DNA from: Clostridiales bacterium
GTDB lineage: Bacteria > Bacillota > Clostridia > Peptostreptococcales > Anaerovoracaceae
Length of the DNA stretch: 54,580 bases
Direction of reading: 5' to 3'
Assembly (NCBI GenBank): GCA_022773945.1
Contig: JALFNS010000003.1
Location: 1-54,580, forward strand
The first letter of the stretch is position 1. The number at the start of each line of letters is the position of its first letter. The position numbers were made by a program, and so were the translations under genes. The notes under the pieces were generated by a model. The model was not told the DNA's origin and ran no database searches. It worked only from the letters and a program-made list of their open reading frames with translations. Shown here piece by piece: positions 18,621 to 32,326 of the stretch.

Positions 18621-20084
18621 TTATTTCTTGTGGCAGCCAAGCGGCAGTTTAGTATATCCGTCCTTGTACTCGCCGGTTTCCAGTCTGTTGAAGTAATCCT
18701 TAACAGCTCTGGCTACAACACCGTTAAGGAGTACCAGTCCGATAAGGTTAGGTGCAGCCATGAGTGCGTTGAATATATCGGCAACTGTCCATACCTGTGA
18801 AAGTGTGAGGAACGGTCCGATAAATACTGCAAAAACGTAGAGCCATCTGTAAATCTGTACGGCTACCTTACTTCCGTTGAAGAGGTATTCACAGCATCTC
18901 TCTGCATAGTAGTCCCATCCGAGGATAGTTGTGAATGCGAAGAATGCCAGTGCGCACATTACTACGAATGATCCGGCTGTAGGTCCGAGCAGTCCCATTG
19001 AGAATGCGTCGATTGTAACCTGAGCTCCGTCGTGACCAACCTGAAGGGCATAGTCATAAGCGCCGGAAGTCATGATTACGAGACCTGTCATCGTACATAC
19101 GCAGATAGTATCTACGAATGTACCTGTCATGGATACGAGGCCCTGTCTTACAGGCTCGTTAGTCTGTGCTGCAGCAGCTGCTATAGGAGCTGAACCCAGA
19201 CCTGACTCGTTGGAGAATACTCCTCTGGCAACGCCCTTGGTGATAGCCAGATAGAATGCTCCGAAAGCTCCTCCTGCTACTGCCTTGCCTCCGAAGGCCA
19301 TCGTAACGATGTCAGCTATTGCCTGAGGAACCTCAGTTATGTTCTTGAATATGATAATCAGTGAAATGAGAACGTAAGCTATTGCCATGAACGGTACTAC
19401 AACTGTAGTTACGGTAGCAATTCTCTTGATTCCGCCGATGATTACCAGTGCTGCACATACAGTAACTACTACGGCAACAATGATTGTTACTATAGTTATG
19501 TTCTTCTCCTCTCCGATAGTGAAGAGTGTAGGAGCTGTGAAGAAAGACTCAGCTGCTGATGCGATACCGTTAATCTGAGTAATCGTACCTATACCGAAGG
19601 CACCAGCGATACATCCGAAGATGGCGAAGAGCTTGCCCAGCCATCTGGCGTTCCATCCGTATCTCTCCTTGATACCTCTCTCGATGTAGTAGAAAGGTCC
19701 GCCCAGATATCCGCCGTCAGGATTCTTCTGTCTGTATATTACTGCCAGACAACCTTCTGAGAACTTGGTTGCCAGACCTACACATGCTGCGATGAACATC
19801 CAGAAGAGAGCTCCGGGTCCACCTACCATTACTGCTGTAGCAACACCAACGATGTTTCCTGTACCGATAGTTGCCGAAAGAGCTGTACAGAGTGCTCCGA
19901 AGGATGTAACCTCTCCGGTACCGTCCGCTTCATTCTTAACCATGTACTTGAGGGCTCTTCCCAGTTTAACGAACTGCATTCCCTTAAGTCTGATCGTAAG
20001 AAGAAGGCCGGTTCCCATAATCATTACGAGTAGAGGAACTCCCCAGACGAAGCTGTCGACCGCGTTTAAAAATTCCGTTACCAT
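18621..20084 (-). CDS. Sodium:alanine/glycine symporter (AGCS family)
   Basis: Polytopic membrane carrier of 487 residues that imports alanine or glycine with Na+. Family signatures are GTGNIVGVATAVMVGGPGALFWMF, YRQKNPDGGYLGGPFYYIE and GVARGVFSNESGLGSAPIAAAAA. The ATG at 20084 is preferred because AAGGAG lies seven bases before it; an upstream in-frame ATG at 20135 falls inside the terminator-containing leader. A glycine riboswitch lies directly upstream, which points to glycine as the physiological substrate. It is transcribed alone and ends at the long hairpin at 18544-18609. Codon choice is strongly biased, suggesting high expression. Confidence 0.94.
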   Translation of the reverse strand: MVTEFLNAVDSFVWGVPLLVMIMGTGLLLTIRLKGMQFVKLGRALKYMVKNEADGTGEVTSFGALCTALSATIGTGNIVGVATAVMVGGPGALFWMFIAACVGLATKFSEGCLAVIYRQKNPDGGYLGGPFYYIERGIKERYGWNARWLGKLFAIFGCIAGAFGIGTITQINGIASAAESFFTAPTLFTIGEEKNITIVTIIVAVVVTVCAALVIIGGIKRIATVTTVVVPFMAIAYVLISLIIIFKNITEVPQAIADIVTMAFGGKAVAGGAFGAFYLAITKGVARGVFSNESGLGSAPIAAAAAQTNEPVRQGLVSMTGTFVDTICVCTMTGLVIMTSGAYDYALQVGHDGAQVTIDAFSMGLLGPTAGSFVVMCALAFFAFTTILGWDYYAERCCEYLFNGSKVAVQIYRWLYVFAVFIGPFLTLSQVWTVADIFNALMAAPNLIGLVLLNGVVARAVKDYFNRLETGEYKDGYTKLPLGCHKK

Positions 20085-20136
20085 TTTAAACTCCTTACCA
20101 TTAATAGAACTATAATTGCGTGCCGTTTCCGGCATA

Positions 20137-20364: not shown

Positions 20365-21435
20365 CTATTCTACAACTTCTGCATTATCATATATGAAATC
20401 CTGAACCTTGCTGTAGAGCAGGGAAATATGAACATACTGCTCAAGATTGCGTCCCGTCTGCTCCTCAACAGCCTCATCATCATATCCCTGTGTTTCAAGA
20501 CCTGAAATCATGTTGTCCAGTTCTTCATCAGTATACGTCAGCTCCTCTTTATCGGCGATATACTCGATAAGAAGCTCCTGCTTGACAAGCAGCTGTGCCG
20601 ACTCCTTTATCATCTTCTTGAGCTCCTTCTCAGTGCTCACGCCGAACATTGTCAGAGCCTCACTTCTCTCATCCGTTCCCTTCTCGCCGTACTGGTCAAC
20701 CTGAGCGTTAAACACCTCGATGTAGTGATTGAGCTCATCCTCAGGGTATTCCTTAACCTTCGTGTTCTCGAGCACATCTGACCAGAGCTCCTCCTTGGCG
20801 GCGGATTCCGCCTCGGACTTCTTCTCGGCACGAATCTTCTTCTTTACCGCCTTCTCGTACTTGTCCGTAGTATCGTAACCCTGACTCTGCGCGAACTCGT
20901 CATCATACTCAGGCTCCTCAGGTCTTGTGGCGGAATTTATTTTAACGGTGAAGACAACATCCTTGCCCTGAAGATCCTCCGAGGAGTAATCATCCGGGAA
21001 TGTGAGCTCCAGCTTGATTCCCTTCTGTCCCACCTTCTTGCCTTCCAGGCCTTCCTCGAATCCGTCTATGAAGGATCCGCTGCCCAGAGTCAGATCCTGC
21101 TTCTCGGCACTGCCGCCGTCGAACTTCTTGCCGTCAATTTTTCCCACATAGTTAATGTTGACTGTGTCTCCCTCGGCAACCTTGTCACCCTTCTCGAGAT
21201 CCTTGTCCTCCGTGGCTGCTTCAAGAGCTGAGGAAATTTCATCTCCAATGTCCTGCTGTGTGACTTCCACCTTTATCTTCTCAGTCTCCAGACCCTTATA
21301 GTCTCCCACCTTCAGATAGTCTCCCGGATCCAGATTCCCGTAAGGCATATCGCCGTCGCAGCCTGACAGAACCATTATTCCCGCTATTGCCATGGCTAAG
21401 ATTCCCGCCGTCTTAAAGATTTTTTTCATTTTCAT
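20365..21435 (-). CDS. Trigger-factor-like FKBP peptidyl-prolyl isomerase lipoprotein
   Basis: Surface lipoprotein of 356 residues. It starts at the ATG at 21435 (GAGAGG six bases upstream) and has a type II signal peptide with lipobox LSGC, lipidated C26. An FKBP domain follows (about residues 90-185: GDTVNINYVGKIDGKKFDGG, LGSGSFIDGFEEGLEGKKVGQK, LTFPDDY), then a helical trigger-factor C-terminal-like domain. It probably folds exported proteins at the membrane outer face, in the way PrsA does, by analogy. The start overlaps the 3' end of the TetM-like/NYN gene by 23 bases, so the two are cotranscribed. Confidence 0.88.
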   Translation of the reverse strand: MKMKKIFKTAGILAMAIAGIMVLSGCDGDMPYGNLDPGDYLKVGDYKGLETEKIKVEVTQQDIGDEISSALEAATEDKDLEKGDKVAEGDTVNINYVGKIDGKKFDGGSAEKQDLTLGSGSFIDGFEEGLEGKKVGQKGIKLELTFPDDYSSEDLQGKDVVFTVKINSATRPEEPEYDDEFAQSQGYDTTDKYEKAVKKKIRAEKKSEAESAAKEELWSDVLENTKVKEYPEDELNHYIEVFNAQVDQYGEKGTDERSEALTMFGVSTEKELKKMIKESAQLLVKQELLIEYIADKEELTYTDEELDNMISGLETQGYDDEAVEEQTGRNLEQYVHISLLYSKVQDFIYDNAEVVE

Positions 21436-24076
21436 TCCAATCCTCTCTGATTTCAATAGTATTCTTATGTTCCAGCATATTCCTGCGGTTGTTACGTTCT
21501 ATGGCCTCCTGTATGCTGTCCTCCACGAGTTCAACTTCTTTCCTGAACTCTGTGGCGGACACGCAGACTCCATCGTTACCCAGAACTATGGATCTCTCCA
21601 GTCTGTCCGATGTGGCCACCCGGACTCTGCACTTGCCGCGCATATTAAATGTAGTCCGTTCTATACACGTATCAGCCGTCTCGTCTTCTCCTGTAAATAC
21701 CACTTCCACCCCGTTCCTGTCTTCTCTGCGTCTCTGGCCGCCTTTAACTCTGTAGGCGTCGAAGACCACAGTGACAGGACAGTTTCTGTATCCCCTGTAG
21801 TTTCCCATTATCTCCACCAGCGCATCGGCTGCGCTGTCAATGTTGACCTTAGCCAGATCTCTGAGCTCCTCCCAGGCGAATATTATGTTATATCCGTCCA
21901 CGAAGAGATGCTCCGGCAGGCTTTCTCCGGCAGGTTTCTTTCGCCTCTTAACGGGAGCTTCCACCTCTCTGGCGGCTATTCGCGGTTTCTTCTCCCCGCT
22001 TCTCCTGTTGGCGCTGAGATTTCTCTCGAAAATACGCTTCAGATTCTCCTCGTCATTTCCCGAAGTGCCGGCACCGCTTCCCGATGACGGCCCTGTCTCC
22101 ACGGGCGGAACGATGTCAGCCTCCCCCGGAAGCCTGCAGCTCACATGCATCAGTTCATCACTCTCATCCCAGGGCACGCTTCTCCCCGCACCCCTGACAC
22201 AGAAAATAGAATCCGAATGCACGCTGCTGTCACCGTCCGCATCATAACCGATGGTCTCCGCAACTTCATCACTGTTGTGACACGGATAATAACCTGCATA
22301 CTCACAGAAAATTCTCCCGCGCCCGCCCGAATAGGATCTGAGCTGAGTCGTGTAATCCTTCAGTTCGGCAACGGGAGCTCTGCCCTCGAGGATGACACCG
22401 CCTGGTGCCTGCACCGGCTCGCCCGTTTCGCCTCCCATCCTCTGTATGTCTCCCATGGCCTTGCCCACATATTCCGCAGGCACCTCCAGACGAAAATCAT
22501 ACCAGGGTTCCAGAAGGATTATCTCACCGTCCCTGAGGCTTTTGCGCAGTCCCTGGGCTACGGCTCTGTATGTGGCCTGTCTGAAATCGCCGCCCTCCGT
22601 ATGTTTCCCGTGAGCTCTGCCGCCCAGAACGGAAATCTTCATATCGGTAATTGACGATCCGGTCAGAGGGCCTGTGAACTCCTTTTCCGCCAGGTGAGTC
22701 ATTATAAGCCGCTGCCAGTTTCTGTCCAGTTCATCTTCACTGCAAAGGCTGCCGATCCGGATGCCGCTTCCCGGTTCAAGCGGCTCCATGAGCAGATGCA
22801 CCTCCGCATAATGGCGCAAAGGCTCGAAGTGCCCTGCACCCTGCACGGGTCCGGCCACAGTTTCCCTGTAGCTTATCTTTTCTTCTCCGAAATCCACCGA
22901 AAATCCGAATCTGTCATGGACCATGCCCCGGAGAATCTCCATCTGCACCGGTCCCATGAGAGAAACCTGTATTTCCTCATGTTCCTCGTCCCAGGTCACA
23001 TGAAGCCCGGGATCTTCCTCCTCCAGCTCTCTGAATTTCATGAGAGCATCATGAGGATTTACGTCTTCGGGGATTATGACGCTGTAGGAGAGTACCGGTT
23101 TCAGGTCGCCTTCCCCGGGAACCACTCCCGAAACACCTGTAAGTGTGCATATCATGCCCTCGGAGGCTTCACCTGTCTGCCTGTATCTGTCACCGGAGTA
23201 AACCCTGATCTGGTTGATTCTACCCGCTTCTCCGTCACCCGAAGCAACAGAATCTCTGACCTTCAGAGTTCCTTCCGTCACCTTCACATGAACGAGCTTG
23301 TCGCCCCGTGAGTCTCTGGTGATTTTGAAGACTTTGCATCTGAAGTCATCACCCCATATGTCGGCTGCGGGCATTCTCAGAGGAACCGCCTTCATGAAGC
23401 TCTCGAAGCCTCTGAGAAATTCATCTATTCCCTCAAACTTCAGAGCCGATCCGAAGAAACATGGATAGACGGCACCATCACCCACGGCACGGCTCAGGGA
23501 TTCGAAAGTGATTTTTCCCTTGTCCAGATACTCTTCCAGAAGCACCTCATCTGCCGCTGCCACATCCTCGAGTTCGCCGTTTTCCGGCAGGCCGTCAGGT
23601 CCCGCAGCGAAGCAGCCTTCCCCCAGATTCTCCTTCAGGTTCTCCATCAGCTCATCTCTGCCGGCGACAGCAATATCCATCTTGTTTACGAATATTACGG
23701 CAGGGATGTTAAGCCTCCTGAGAAGTCTCCACAGTGTCACCGTGTGACCCTGAACTCCATCGCGTCCGCTGACCACGAGAACTGCACAGTCCAGTACACC
23801 CAGAACCCTCTCCGTCTCCGAAGAGAAGTCCACATGGCCCGGCGTATCGAGAAGAGTGAGATCCGTCTCTTCAAGAGGCAGCTCAGCCTGTCCGAAAAAG
23901 ATGGTAATCCCGCGCTTTCTCTCCTGCTCCGCACTGTCCATGAAGGCATTGCCCCGGTCCACACGGCCCGGTTTGTCTATAACGCCGGTCCGGTAGAGCA
24001 TCGCCTCGGAGAGCGTGGTCTTCCCCGCGTCCACGTGTGCCAGTATTCCTGTTGTGAGTTTCTTTCTCTCAGTCAT
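21413..24076 (-). CDS. TetM-like translational GTPase fused to a Rae1/YacP-type NYN nuclease
   Basis: Protein of 887 residues. Residues 1-640 are an EF-G/TetM-type GTPase: G1 AHVDAGKTT, G3 DTPGHVDF, G4 FVNKMD, domains II-V and a C-terminal LRSYSGGRGRIFCEY as in ribosomal protection proteins. A low-complexity charged linker follows (about 660-722). Residues 723-865 are a NYN/YacP domain with conserved acidic residues D727 (VDGYN), D773 (VFDAY), D802 (ETAD) and D824 (TSDR), closely resembling B. subtilis Rae1, the mRNA endonuclease that acts in the ribosomal A site. The fusion suggests a factor that enters the A site and cuts mRNA on particular ribosomes. Tetracycline protection is an alternative for the GTPase part. 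The ATG at 24076 has no Shine-Dalgarno sequence; a TATACT box ends six bases before it. Confidence 0.9.
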   Translation of the reverse strand: MTERKKLTTGILAHVDAGKTTLSEAMLYRTGVIDKPGRVDRGNAFMDSAEQERKRGITIFFGQAELPLEETDLTLLDTPGHVDFSSETERVLGVLDCAVLVVSGRDGVQGHTVTLWRLLRRLNIPAVIFVNKMDIAVAGRDELMENLKENLGEGCFAAGPDGLPENGELEDVAAADEVLLEEYLDKGKITFESLSRAVGDGAVYPCFFGSALKFEGIDEFLRGFESFMKAVPLRMPAADIWGDDFRCKVFKITRDSRGDKLVHVKVTEGTLKVRDSVASGDGEAGRINQIRVYSGDRYRQTGEASEGMICTLTGVSGVVPGEGDLKPVLSYSVIIPEDVNPHDALMKFRELEEEDPGLHVTWDEEHEEIQVSLMGPVQMEILRGMVHDRFGFSVDFGEEKISYRETVAGPVQGAGHFEPLRHYAEVHLLMEPLEPGSGIRIGSLCSEDELDRNWQRLIMTHLAEKEFTGPLTGSSITDMKISVLGGRAHGKHTEGGDFRQATYRAVAQGLRKSLRDGEIILLEPWYDFRLEVPAEYVGKAMGDIQRMGGETGEPVQAPGGVILEGRAPVAELKDYTTQLRSYSGGRGRIFCEYAGYYPCHNSDEVAETIGYDADGDSSVHSDSIFCVRGAGRSVPWDESDELMHVSCRLPGEADIVPPVETGPSSGSGAGTSGNDEENLKRIFERNLSANRRSGEKKPRIAAREVEAPVKRRKKPAGESLPEHLFVDGYNIIFAWEELRDLAKVNIDSAADALVEIMGNYRGYRNCPVTVVFDAYRVKGGQRRREDRNGVEVVFTGEDETADTCIERTTFNMRGKCRVRVATSDRLERSIVLGNDGVCVSATEFRKEVELVEDSIQEAIERNNRRNMLEHKNTIEIREDWNENEKNL

Positions 24077-24082
24077 AGAACA

Positions 24083-24088
24083 AGTATA
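24083..24088 (-). promoter_or_regulatory. -10 box (TATACT) six bases from the GTPase-NYN start codon
   Basis: On the minus strand TATACT is followed by six bases and the ATG. A transcript from it would be leaderless or nearly so. TTATAC lies 18 bases upstream as a poor -35. Confidence 0.35.
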
Positions 24089-24092
24089 ACAC

Positions 24093-24124
24093 AAAAAAAC
24101 ACGCCCGTATAACCGAACGTGTTT
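24093..24124 (-). terminator. Terminator of the infC-rpmI-rplT operon
   Basis: On the minus strand AAACACG pairs with CGTGTTT (7 bp, 14-base loop) and continues into a seven-T run. It lies 17 bases past the rplT stop and ends just before the GTPase-NYN gene. Confidence 0.65.
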
Positions 24125-24140
24125 CGTTTCTCATCATATT

Positions 24141-24741: not shown

Positions 24742-25260
24742 TTATTTCTTGTCGCTCTTCGGCGAAAGAATCATAGTAAGACTTCTGCCCTCAAACTTAG
24801 GCTTCTTGTCCATCTCGCCGTATTCGGATACAGCCTCGGCGAACTTCTCCATAACTTCCTGTCCGCGAGCCACGTAATCGCGCTCTCTGCCTCTGAATCT
24901 CAGGCTGACCTTGAGCTTGTTCCCGTCCTTGAGGAACTTGGCTCCCGTCTTCGCCTTGACCATGATGTCATGATCTTCGATGAAAGTGGACAGTCTTATC
25001 TCCTTCACCTGTGTCGTGTGCTGTTTCTTCTTGGCTTCCTTCTCTCTCTTCTGCTGCTCGTACTTGTACTTGCCGTAGTCAAGAATCTTACACACAGGCG
25101 GATCTGCCTTAGGCGCTATGCATACGAGGTCAAGCTTCTTCTCCTCGGAGAGGTCGAGAGCTTCCTGTCTGCTCATGATGCCAAGCTGATTTCCTTCATC
25201 ATCGATAACTCTAAATTCTTTCCCACGAATTTCTTCGTTTATGTACGCTTCTCTGGCTAT
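24742..25260 (-). CDS. infC: Translation initiation factor IF-3 with a non-canonical ATA start
   Basis: Initiation factor of 172 residues that keeps ribosomal subunits apart and proofreads start codons. The first in-frame ATG (25176) would remove the conserved N-terminal segment INEEIRGKEFRVIDDEGNQLGIM, which is encoded immediately upstream. The only sensible start for the full protein is the ATA at 25260, nine bases after AGGAGG. No ATG, GTG or TTG lies in frame between them. IF-3 genes are known to use rare AUU/AUC/AUA starts as a negative feedback device. The N domain, linker helix (KYKYEQQKREKEAKKKQ) and C domain are all present. Confidence 0.93.
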   Translation of the reverse strand: MAREAYINEEIRGKEFRVIDDEGNQLGIMSRQEALDLSEEKKLDLVCIAPKADPPVCKILDYGKYKYEQQKREKEAKKKQHTTQVKEIRLSTFIEDHDIMVKAKTGAKFLKDGNKLKVSLRFRGRERDYVARGQEVMEKFAEAVSEYGEMDKKPKFEGRSLTMILSPKSDKK

Positions 25261-30833: not shown

Positions 30834-32297
30834 TTACTTTGCCGAATAAAACTTCTGGTTTTTGCTCTTCGGATGCTCCGGTATTGTCAGTAAGAGCCGG
30901 TTTGATTTAACAAGAGGATCGATATATTTCTTCGTTACATAATAAATAGTTTTTAAGCCGAGATATTCAGCTATTTCTCCTCTGGATTTAGGTTCCCTGC
31001 AAAATTCTATCAGATCTGTTACTGCACTGCACTCTGATTTGCCGCCGAACCCATACTTAACAGCTACTTCCTTTGCTGATTGATTCTTAAGTATTACCAC
31101 AAATTCATTTCTTCCGTTCTTAAATACCGGCTCCGGCAGGCCATATTCTTTCATTGCCAGTCTGATTGTCGGTATCCCCGAGTATCTGTTCTCCGCCTCT
31201 GTCTGCGACTCTGCAATCAGTGCCAGGGCAGGATTGCGGAGATCCGGTTTGGAATATCCAAGTTGCTCAACAGTCATTCTGCCGTAAAGACTCCCCGGGC
31301 TATGTATTTCCAGACGGTCTGCATAGAATATAATCTGCACCGGTGTTCCTTCAGTGAAATGACTATAGTCGCGATGAATCAGAGCATTAAGTACAGCTTC
31401 TCTGATAGCTTTTATCGGATACTCTGTCCTGTCGACTCTCTTCCCTGTATTCTTGTCTATTATGGTTGCGACCTTCATATTTCTCATGCAGAAGGCTAAA
31501 GCACCATTCATCATTTCTGCTAACGTTCCCTCAATTCGTTTGTTATCGATGAACCGGGCATCATTTTCATCAACTTCACCGATTTCAAACCCCGGTACAC
31601 GCACTGCAGTAATTGCCATTTGCGGCAGGTAGCCTTGCGGATAAACACAGAAATTCATTACAGCAGCAACTGTCGGCTTGCCCTCGCGAGTTATATTAAG
31701 CATTTCCTCCTGCAGATTTCTCGGTAGCTTGGCGAACTCAGGTTTATCGCTCTGTTGCTTTTCAATAAACTCATTAATTTTATTACTGTCAAGGCTTCGC
31801 ATTGTAGCCCTTTCGACAACGCGTTCATCATCATGGGCATGCTTTCTGAAAGCCTCGAAGCTATACAGCTCGTAATCTGTCATGGGAAGATCTGCATCCC
31901 CCACTCTGACAAACGAGCCTCTCAATTTACCGGCACCGGTGTAATAGCAAGGTCTCTCAGACAAATCAATCCCCGGAATTTCAGCCGAACAGATAGTGCA
32001 CCCCTTATATTCAGCAGTTGTGAACACGGCTCTGACAGGAGGCATCATCTGATTGCATTGCTCAGTCACTTTTTTCTGAAGATCCTGCACATCATATACA
32101 TTGCACGGAACAAAGCCCTCCTTTTCATTAATCCCGAAGACTATTGTTCCGCCCATATCCTGATTGGAAAAACCGGATAAAGTACCGTACAACTTCTGTG
32201 GACATCCGCCCTCCGCCGTCTTCAACTCTATCGTCTGCTCCTCTGCCTTGTTAGCACAAATTCGATCAGCTAAAGCCAACAATTCTTCTTTTGTCAT
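30834..32297 (-). CDS. AlbA_2 (Schlafen-like) domain transcriptional regulator/ATPase
   Basis: Protein of 487 residues. The N-terminal AlbA_2 domain (about 10-130: IELKTAEGG, GTLSGFSNQDMGGTIVFGI, GSFVRVGDADLPM) is followed by an ATP-binding HATPase_c_4-like region (YPIKAIREAVLNALIHRDYS, GTPVQIIFYADRLEIHSPGSLYG, RNPALA) and a C-terminal winged helix (FCREPKSRGEIAEYLGLKTIYYVTKKYIDPLV). Such proteins are annotated as putative regulators; some occur with defence or stress genes. The ATG at 32297 is chosen because GGAGG lies eight bases before it. Three spaced repeats overlap its promoter, suggesting autoregulation. It has no operon partner. Confidence 0.85.
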   Translation of the reverse strand: MTKEELLALADRICANKAEEQTIELKTAEGGCPQKLYGTLSGFSNQDMGGTIVFGINEKEGFVPCNVYDVQDLQKKVTEQCNQMMPPVRAVFTTAEYKGCTICSAEIPGIDLSERPCYYTGAGKLRGSFVRVGDADLPMTDYELYSFEAFRKHAHDDERVVERATMRSLDSNKINEFIEKQQSDKPEFAKLPRNLQEEMLNITREGKPTVAAVMNFCVYPQGYLPQMAITAVRVPGFEIGEVDENDARFIDNKRIEGTLAEMMNGALAFCMRNMKVATIIDKNTGKRVDRTEYPIKAIREAVLNALIHRDYSHFTEGTPVQIIFYADRLEIHSPGSLYGRMTVEQLGYSKPDLRNPALALIAESQTEAENRYSGIPTIRLAMKEYGLPEPVFKNGRNEFVVILKNQSAKEVAVKYGFGGKSECSAVTDLIEFCREPKSRGEIAEYLGLKTIYYVTKKYIDPLVKSNRLLLTIPEHPKSKNQKFYSAK

Positions 32298-32326
32298 CTC
32301 ACCGACCTCCATAGTTTTATAGAATT

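Follow-up and report, generated by a model that had tools for sequence, protein, structure and literature searches.

Bacteria often must cut the mRNA on stalled ribosomes before these can be rescued. The list of bacterial enzymes that perform such cuts has been called incomplete (PMC12320835), and Rae1 (YacP) of Bacillus subtilis, the studied member of the NYN_YacP family, is a translation-dependent mRNA endonuclease (PMC10100781). Fusions of tetracycline ribosomal protection (Tet) proteins with a YacP-like NYN RNase were reported in ten clostridial species by Atkinson 2015 (BMC Genomics, PMC4342817), where an ability to cut rRNA is named in the introduction as something to test. Here we analysed a window of 54,580 nucleotides from a Clostridiales bacterium (assembly GCA_022773945.1, contig JALFNS010000003.1), in which an earlier note, made from the letters alone, had described a TetM-like GTPase fused to a Rae1-type nuclease. 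The fusion is real and widespread and has a previously known architecture, and the explanation that we favour is that the GTPase delivers the nuclease.

The fusion gene and the replacement of free Rae1

The fusion gene lies at positions 21413-24076 of the minus strand (ATG at 24076, stop codon at 21413-21415), as translation and Pfam matches agree, and its 887 amino acids are read in one uninterrupted frame; the plus strand of the same interval contains three internal stops. The earlier note had the coordinates and length right. Residues 1-602 (22271-24076) form an EF-G-type GTPase with domains G, II, III, IV and V, delimited with Pfam, solved relatives and a structural model. They are followed on the same strand by a C-terminal module of the GTPase subfamily (residues 603-644; 22145-22270), which is defined by alignments, ends in SIFC..GAG..VPW....MH and is predicted to be folded, by a linker (residues 645-723; 21908-22144) and by the NYN_YacP (Rae1) nuclease domain (residues 724-882; 21431-21907). 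Pfam detected GTP_EFTU at residues 8-226 (2.7e-49), EF-G_D2 at 245-319, EFG_IV at 400-513 and EFG_C at 521-602, while EFG_III (327-397) scored 25.7 bits, slightly below its cut-off of 27; with that one marginal match, the GTPase is complete, as had been claimed. The NYN_YacP match (2.5e-42) reached 145.2 bits against a cut-off of 24.6. Because frames of fusion size recur in many other assemblies, the fusion is no assembly accident, and we regard it as confirmed.

Among solved structures, B. subtilis YacP (5mq8) was matched by the nuclease half with E 5.7e-25, and the four acidic positions of this half (D727, D773, D802 and D824), said in the earlier note to be kept, were invariant in 24 aligned fusions and then in all 44 of a larger set; the same four catalytic aspartates occur in 19 of 19 free Rae1 proteins. 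The far C-terminus differs between the two forms. In free Rae1 it carries L161 (16/19), E162 (18/19) and R165 (17/19; B. subtilis numbering), whereas among the 44 fused domains these residues are found in 5%, 18% and 0% (0/44), respectively. At most 7 residues remain beyond position 140 in 19 of the 44 fused tails, compared with 25-32 in free Rae1, and a looser pattern over the last 18 residues is present in 19/19 free but 7/44 fused proteins, the window protein not being among the latter. Among the matches listed, the Pfam NYN_YacP match extends to position 162 in 60/60 free versus 35/84 fused rows, a comparison from which six rows with frames of 295-618 amino acids were excluded. The LExxR element thus delineated is a pattern found in this analysis and not an agreed family criterion. 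It adjoins R166 of B. subtilis Rae1, a residue whose change to P emerged from a selection and apparently costs the protein its function (PMC6613710). These alignments, new to this work, indicate that the element has been lost in fused copies; it may be needed for docking on the ribosome or for binding a partner, a need that the GTPase would then have removed.

To place the fusion, we used samples of 119 genomes from the source family, 293 from its class and 299 from its phylum. In the family, NYN_YacP was detected in 60 of 119 genomes and a relative of the GTPase (E 1e-60 or better) in 61, though in at least one of these (G065) the gene is Tet(O)-like. In the class, the counts were 192 of 293 for NYN_YacP and 123 of 293 for the GTPase (E 1e-85 or better). 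When these 123 were sorted by frame length, with fusion size set at 780 amino acids or more, 99 genomes had fusion-size frames, 4 had split or broken ones and 20 had unfused ones. The 99 (where the match contains a TAG in G305 and a TGA in G178) spread over 24 family codes by hand count, and at least 84 of the NYN_YacP matches in the class themselves lie inside frames of at least 734 amino acids. The earlier note had proposed looking for the same architecture elsewhere and for a separate yacP in the same genomes: the former was found as described, and, for the latter, all 99 fusion-size genomes contain NYN_YacP, 95 of them only one, and in the source genome the fused domain is the only one found. 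Of the 20 unfused-GTPase genomes, 14 encode NYN_YacP elsewhere (the GTPase of G245 groups with Tet, and that of G261 is known from a partial match only) and 6 have none. In the phylum sample, NYN_YacP occurs in 163 of 299 genomes, and at least 12 genomes in five family codes outside the class have fusion-size frames (hand count). Taken together, these counts make the fusion a common form of Rae1 in clostridia and their relatives. A scan of genome contigs, seeded on generic GTP-binding motifs, gave at least 80 loci, most of the listed ones matching the GTPase part only, at 25-33% identity; those reaching the NYN part, among the matches listed, came from Lachnospiraceae, Oscillospiraceae, Merdimonas, Pseudobutyrivibrio, Clostridiaceae and Clostridia.

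The chromosomal site of free rae1 gives a second view of this replacement. With rlmB located by TIGR00186 and the genes of the slot searched with B. subtilis protein queries, rae1 was found between sigH and rlmB at 16 of 18 free-Rae1 loci (with a larger gap to rlmB at L085); of the remaining two, L081 showed sigH only and L078 neither gene. In the source genome (L205) the rlmB frame runs to 2247 and that of sigH starts at 2248, which leaves no room for rae1. The two frames also meet directly in fusion genomes G059 and G071, and rlmB is followed by sigH without rae1 in G235, across a gap of 112 bases, and in G306, across 567 bases that hold no 60-residue frame on that strand. No rae1 match was obtained at any of nine rlmB loci of fusion genomes (L199-L207). 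We conclude that the fusion mostly replaces free Rae1 in the genomes that carry it, an observation new to this work.

The GTPase half and its relation to Tet proteins

By sequence, the nearest solved relatives of the GTPase half are TetM, TetO and EF-G, and the best 50 matches of a fold search are all EF-G/EF-2-type proteins. The G-domain residues D16, K19, T20, D77, H81, N131, K132 and D134 are invariant in the alignment of 44 fusions, so that the GTP-binding motifs and the catalytic His of an EF-G-type GTPase stand beside domains II to V. The family models score it low: 381.9 bits against a cut-off of 775 for NCBIfam tet_protect, and 247.6 bits against 659.4 for EF-G. A role as the EF-G translocase was rejected, given the latter score and a separate presumed EF-G gene of 688 amino acids (L108) in the source genome. 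The same genome holds another EF-G-like GTPase frame of 654 amino acids (L109, G000:C46), which is neither the fusion nor the presumed EF-G.

A GTPase tree of 75 rows, built by a quick method with a single EF-G outgroup row (the presumed EF-G L108), gathers fused and unfused subfamily members in one clade, with a support of 100 in the Shimodaira-Hasegawa-like approximate likelihood-ratio test (SH-aLRT). Tet(M), Tet(W), Tet(O), TetB(P) and OtrA form a separate clade (SH-aLRT 95) together with two genomic rows, L048 and L049, that had initially been counted as unfused subfamily members. Loop III at the tip of domain IV (residues 485-502; 22571-22624, minus strand) separates the groups in the alignments. 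It bears the signature HxKHTxGGDFR in most subfamily rows (HGKHTEGGDFR in the window protein), and a GGDF-containing loop is present in 42 of 44 fused (exceptions L058 and L066) and 21 of 21 unfused members, compared with none of nine Tet-clade rows and not the EF-G row. The window protein has GKHTEG where Tet(M) has SPVSTP, and its K491 aligns with P509 of TetM, a proline that we take to be the mark used for tetracycline ribosomal protection proteins. This proline is present in 7/7 annotated or close Tet/OtrA rows and missing from L048 and L049 of the Tet clade. The module that follows domain V was not found in any Tet or EF-G row compared. Identity to Tet(M) and Tet(O) is ~29% and to Tet(W) ~31%, whereas unfused subfamily GTPases of Ligilactobacillus salivarius, where plasmids carry the gene, and of Paenibacillus cellulosilyticus are 42-45% identical to the window GTPase.

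These comparisons, new here, place the fusion GTPase in a subfamily apart from Tet. The subfamily has a distinct domain-IV tip and C-terminal module, and it includes unfused members as well. Subfamily proteins carry the NCBI name 'translation factor GTPase family protein' or that of a Tet family, and members in Agathobacter rectalis and L. salivarius are annotated as 'TetM/TetW/TetO/TetS family'; the Tet names are probably wrong. The 'TetM-like' of the earlier note therefore holds for membership in the shared EF-G-type family and is not supported beyond it, with 382 bits against 775, a place outside the Tet clade and a loop III without the Tet sequence. An unfused GTPase with the same domain-IV signature was also seen in Bifidobacterium avesanii and an uncultured Collinsella (L132 and L128), which suggests transfer into actinobacteria.

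The fused rows make up a clade of the GTPase tree (SH-aLRT 98). A single unfused row sits inside it, from L. salivarius, most likely because the gene was transferred and then lost its nuclease part; the long branches L058, L059 and L071 are uncertainly placed. In the NYN tree the free rows L078 and L081 are interspersed with fused ones, a few fused rows are placed elsewhere, and constraining the fused domains to one clade was not rejected by the approximately unbiased (AU) test (p-AU 0.511), which is no proof of a single clade. Both trees fit a single fusion event, a point that is also new to this work. The free Rae1 genes L078 and L081, with NYN domains that lie among the fused ones, keep the C-terminal element and are possible relatives of the fusion's donor.

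Proposed delivery of the nuclease to ribosomes and competing explanations

The linker of the window protein contains 15 K/R and 12 D/E in 79 residues, in keeping with the charged, low-complexity stretch noted earlier, and across 44 fusions its length is 67-119 residues (median 78). AlphaFold2 folded the GTPase with its C-terminal module and the NYN domain (mean predicted local distance difference test score, pLDDT, 76.9; predicted template modelling score, pTM, 0.43) and left residues 652-718 mostly at pLDDT < 50, with a helix at 675-688. This helix occupies the place where many relatives have an ELxxIFExTY-type motif, which is found in 23 of the 44 fusions and not in the window protein. An orthologue (L119) gave the same folded halves and disordered linker (mean pLDDT 78.9, pTM 0.59). 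Because the halves are folded and the linker is disordered in these models, the nuclease is best seen as tethered.

We consider it moderately probable that the fusion is a Rae1 mRNA endonuclease delivered to ribosomes by a dedicated GTPase, with rae1 joined once to the 3' end of the GTPase gene and GTP hydrolysis preceding the cut. In such a scheme, a rae1 gene would have joined the end of a non-Tet translational GTPase gene, after which the free copy usually became absent. The GTPase part would dock at the EF-G site, using the His/Lys-rich tip of its domain IV, and its targets would probably be ribosomes that have paused while their A site is empty. GTP hydrolysis would let domain IV depart, and the nuclease, on its linker of ~80 residues, could then cut the mRNA in or beside the A site and thereby open the way to ribosome rescue. 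The mRNA as substrate is taken over from B. subtilis Rae1, and we infer that the GTPase part does the docking and that its hydrolysis gates the cutting. A ribosome-directed nuclease, as the earlier note proposed, is the natural reading of a fusion with intact nuclease residues and no separate yacP, and its idea of mRNA surveillance is plausible. More tentatively, Rae1 in about half of Rae1-bearing clostridia (99 of 192 NYN genomes in the class sample) might be a GTPase-clocked surveillance factor in one polypeptide, whose tip inspects the decoding site and which, after hydrolysis, passes the A site to the tethered nuclease for cutting of the mRNA.

Several points weigh against delivery as outlined. 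While domain IV occupies the A site, the nuclease could not reach it, and therefore cutting must follow its departure or happen elsewhere. The pTM values of 0.43 and 0.59 give no settled relative placement of the halves, and the activity of the fusion is a prediction. A second NYN_YacP is present in 4 of the 99 fusion genomes, G235 among them. The 6 of 20 unfused-GTPase genomes without NYN_YacP and the 75 of 192 NYN genomes without the GTPase at E 1e-85 mean that neither half needs the other in general. The rae1 slot proved closed up or emptied in five of the ten fusion genomes examined: G068 had no rlmB above cut-off, and sigH was not found near rlmB in the short loci L201, L204, L206 and L207, which for that reason do not bear on the slot. 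The loss of LExxR may be a single event inherited by all fusions, and R166P might merely break a helix.

Three other accounts share parts of this evidence. If the halves were independent, the GTPase acting like its unfused relatives and the nuclease being an ordinary Rae1 merely attached, it would be understandable that each half also occurs without the other and that the long flexible linker leaves their placement unsettled; yet fusion-size frames persist over the 24 family codes and for the most part stand in for free Rae1, fused copies have lost the C-terminal element of the free form, and possible internal start codons at residues 641-740 have no convincing ribosome-binding site by eye, all of which makes independence rather unlikely. 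The nuclease could alternatively trim or destroy rRNA or tRNA, in which case the fusion would be a factor for ribosome maturation or turnover, directed by its GTPase to ribosomes that are immature or damaged. BipA, a related GTPase, acts in ribosome assembly, and the fusion gene comes after infC and rplT in the source genome. NYN_YacP was also formerly predicted to mature rRNA or tRNA, as cited in Atkinson 2015 (PMC4342817). With no infC or rplT match at any of 49 other fusion loci, and with mRNA as the target of B. subtilis Rae1, we regard this account as unlikely.

Atkinson 2015 (PMC4342817) classed its ten clostridial examples with Tet and suggested that an added RNase might strengthen or change tetracycline resistance. 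The NCBI family names and the closeness of TetM and TetO among solved structures speak for this, as does an L. salivarius strain reported as intermediate to tetracycline; that report, in which software calls tet(M) and tet(L) and the tet(M) gene is not pinned down (PMC12502609), also weighs against delivery. Another L. salivarius strain was reported without resistance genes (PMC12427466). The score less than half of the tet_protect cut-off, the place outside the Tet(M)/Tet(O)/Tet(W)/TetB(P)/OtrA clade, the replaced loop-III proline (missing, however, in L048 and L049 too), the C-terminal module not seen in Tet rows and the lack of any mobile context, with 2 of 945 matched plasmid records covering at least 80% of the query, make a resistance protein improbable. 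The fusion suggests a dedicated GTPase as partner of Rae1 in many clostridia, and also that some commensal genes labelled as tetracycline resistance, for example in Agathobacter rectalis, are mislabelled, which is relevant to resistance surveys.

Genomic context and comparison with known systems

All immediate neighbours of the fusion gene lie on the minus strand. Upstream are infC for initiation factor IF-3 (24742-25176, Pfam; its true start is probably further upstream) and rplT for ribosomal protein L20 (24141-24494, Pfam), and a terminator-like hairpin (24096-24125), a consensus match only, stands between rplT and the fusion gene; five such sites were found in the region versus 4.2 in shuffles. 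The hairpin ends 19 bases before the fusion ATG, with no ribosome-binding site evident by eye. The region 24060-24130 (minus strand) contains an extended -10-like stretch, TGTTATACT, and, by eye, no clear Shine-Dalgarno, and the transcript is possibly leaderless. Downstream is a trigger-factor-like FKBP gene (20365-21435), with FKBP and trigger-factor C domains and a TIGR00115 score above cut-off, whose probable ATG at 21435 overlaps the last codons of the fusion gene. The earlier note had called it an FKBP chaperone lipoprotein gene; the domains bear out the chaperone, while 'lipoprotein' reflects the appearance of the N-terminus only.

We surveyed 49 further fusion loci, which span 4.4-16.4 kb each and in some cases are truncated at a contig end. 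No match to the trigger-factor-like gene, L20, IF-3 or the transporter was obtained at any of them, so that the chaperone neighbour is unsupported as a functional clue. SfsA occurs at two of the 49 (L022 and L106), whose fusions are near-identical, and the most widely shared neighbour cluster, ATP-binding cassette (ABC) transporter-like and on either side of the fusion (named by eye), reaches 9 of 44 loci at most. The fusion gave no PADLOC match, and a defence system was rejected. A mobile element was likewise rejected: the matched plasmid records, among the matches listed, mostly carry Tet genes. The NYN part alone matched 23 plasmid records, with two (Agathobacter and Monoglobus) annotated as GTPase among the 20 matches listed. 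Among 97 phage records, two reach a query coverage of 80% or more; both stem from human faeces, and one of them, MT835563, is an unverified scaffold. No viral contig matched past query residue 722 (best 80 of 140 relatives).

Elsewhere in the window, an L20 leader (RF00558; 25294-25423, minus strand), the usual autoregulatory element of the infC-rplT operon, lies upstream of infC. A glycine riboswitch aptamer (RF00504; 20201-20281, minus strand) lies directly upstream of the gene for a 504-residue membrane protein (18621-20135) that by eye resembles an amino-acid:cation symporter. A protein with Schlafen AlbA_2 and HATPase_c_4 domains (30834-32312, minus strand) lies just ahead of DNA with a lower G+C content (0.38-0.43 at 32-38 kb), which was perhaps acquired.

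The architecture is in print, and the part of Atkinson 2015 (PMC4342817) that concerns it reports the fusions without a functional test; no other paper on the fusion or follow-up of that suggestion was found in searches of open-licence PMC papers. By description, and not by sequences, those fusions have the same architecture and very probably belong to the same family, but they were presented as Tet proteins of ten species, whereas in the present analysis the GTPase belongs to a subfamily apart from Tet and fusion-size frames occur in 99 of 293 class genomes. Rae1/YacP of B. subtilis (5mq8) has the NYN domain and the four aspartates in common with the window protein; it is a free protein of 170 amino acids encoded in the order rlmB-rae1-sigH and has the LExxR-type element, while the window copy is fused, its former site closed up and the element lost. 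Tet(M) and Tet(O) share the EF-G-like five-domain GTPase with the window protein, which differs in loop III, C-terminal end and clade and scores below the family cut-off. The unfused GTPases of L. salivarius (under Tet-family or 'translation factor GTPase family protein' names) and Paenibacillus cellulosilyticus (unannotated) have the GGDF-type loop and the C-terminal module of the fusion and, unlike the window protein, no NYN domain.

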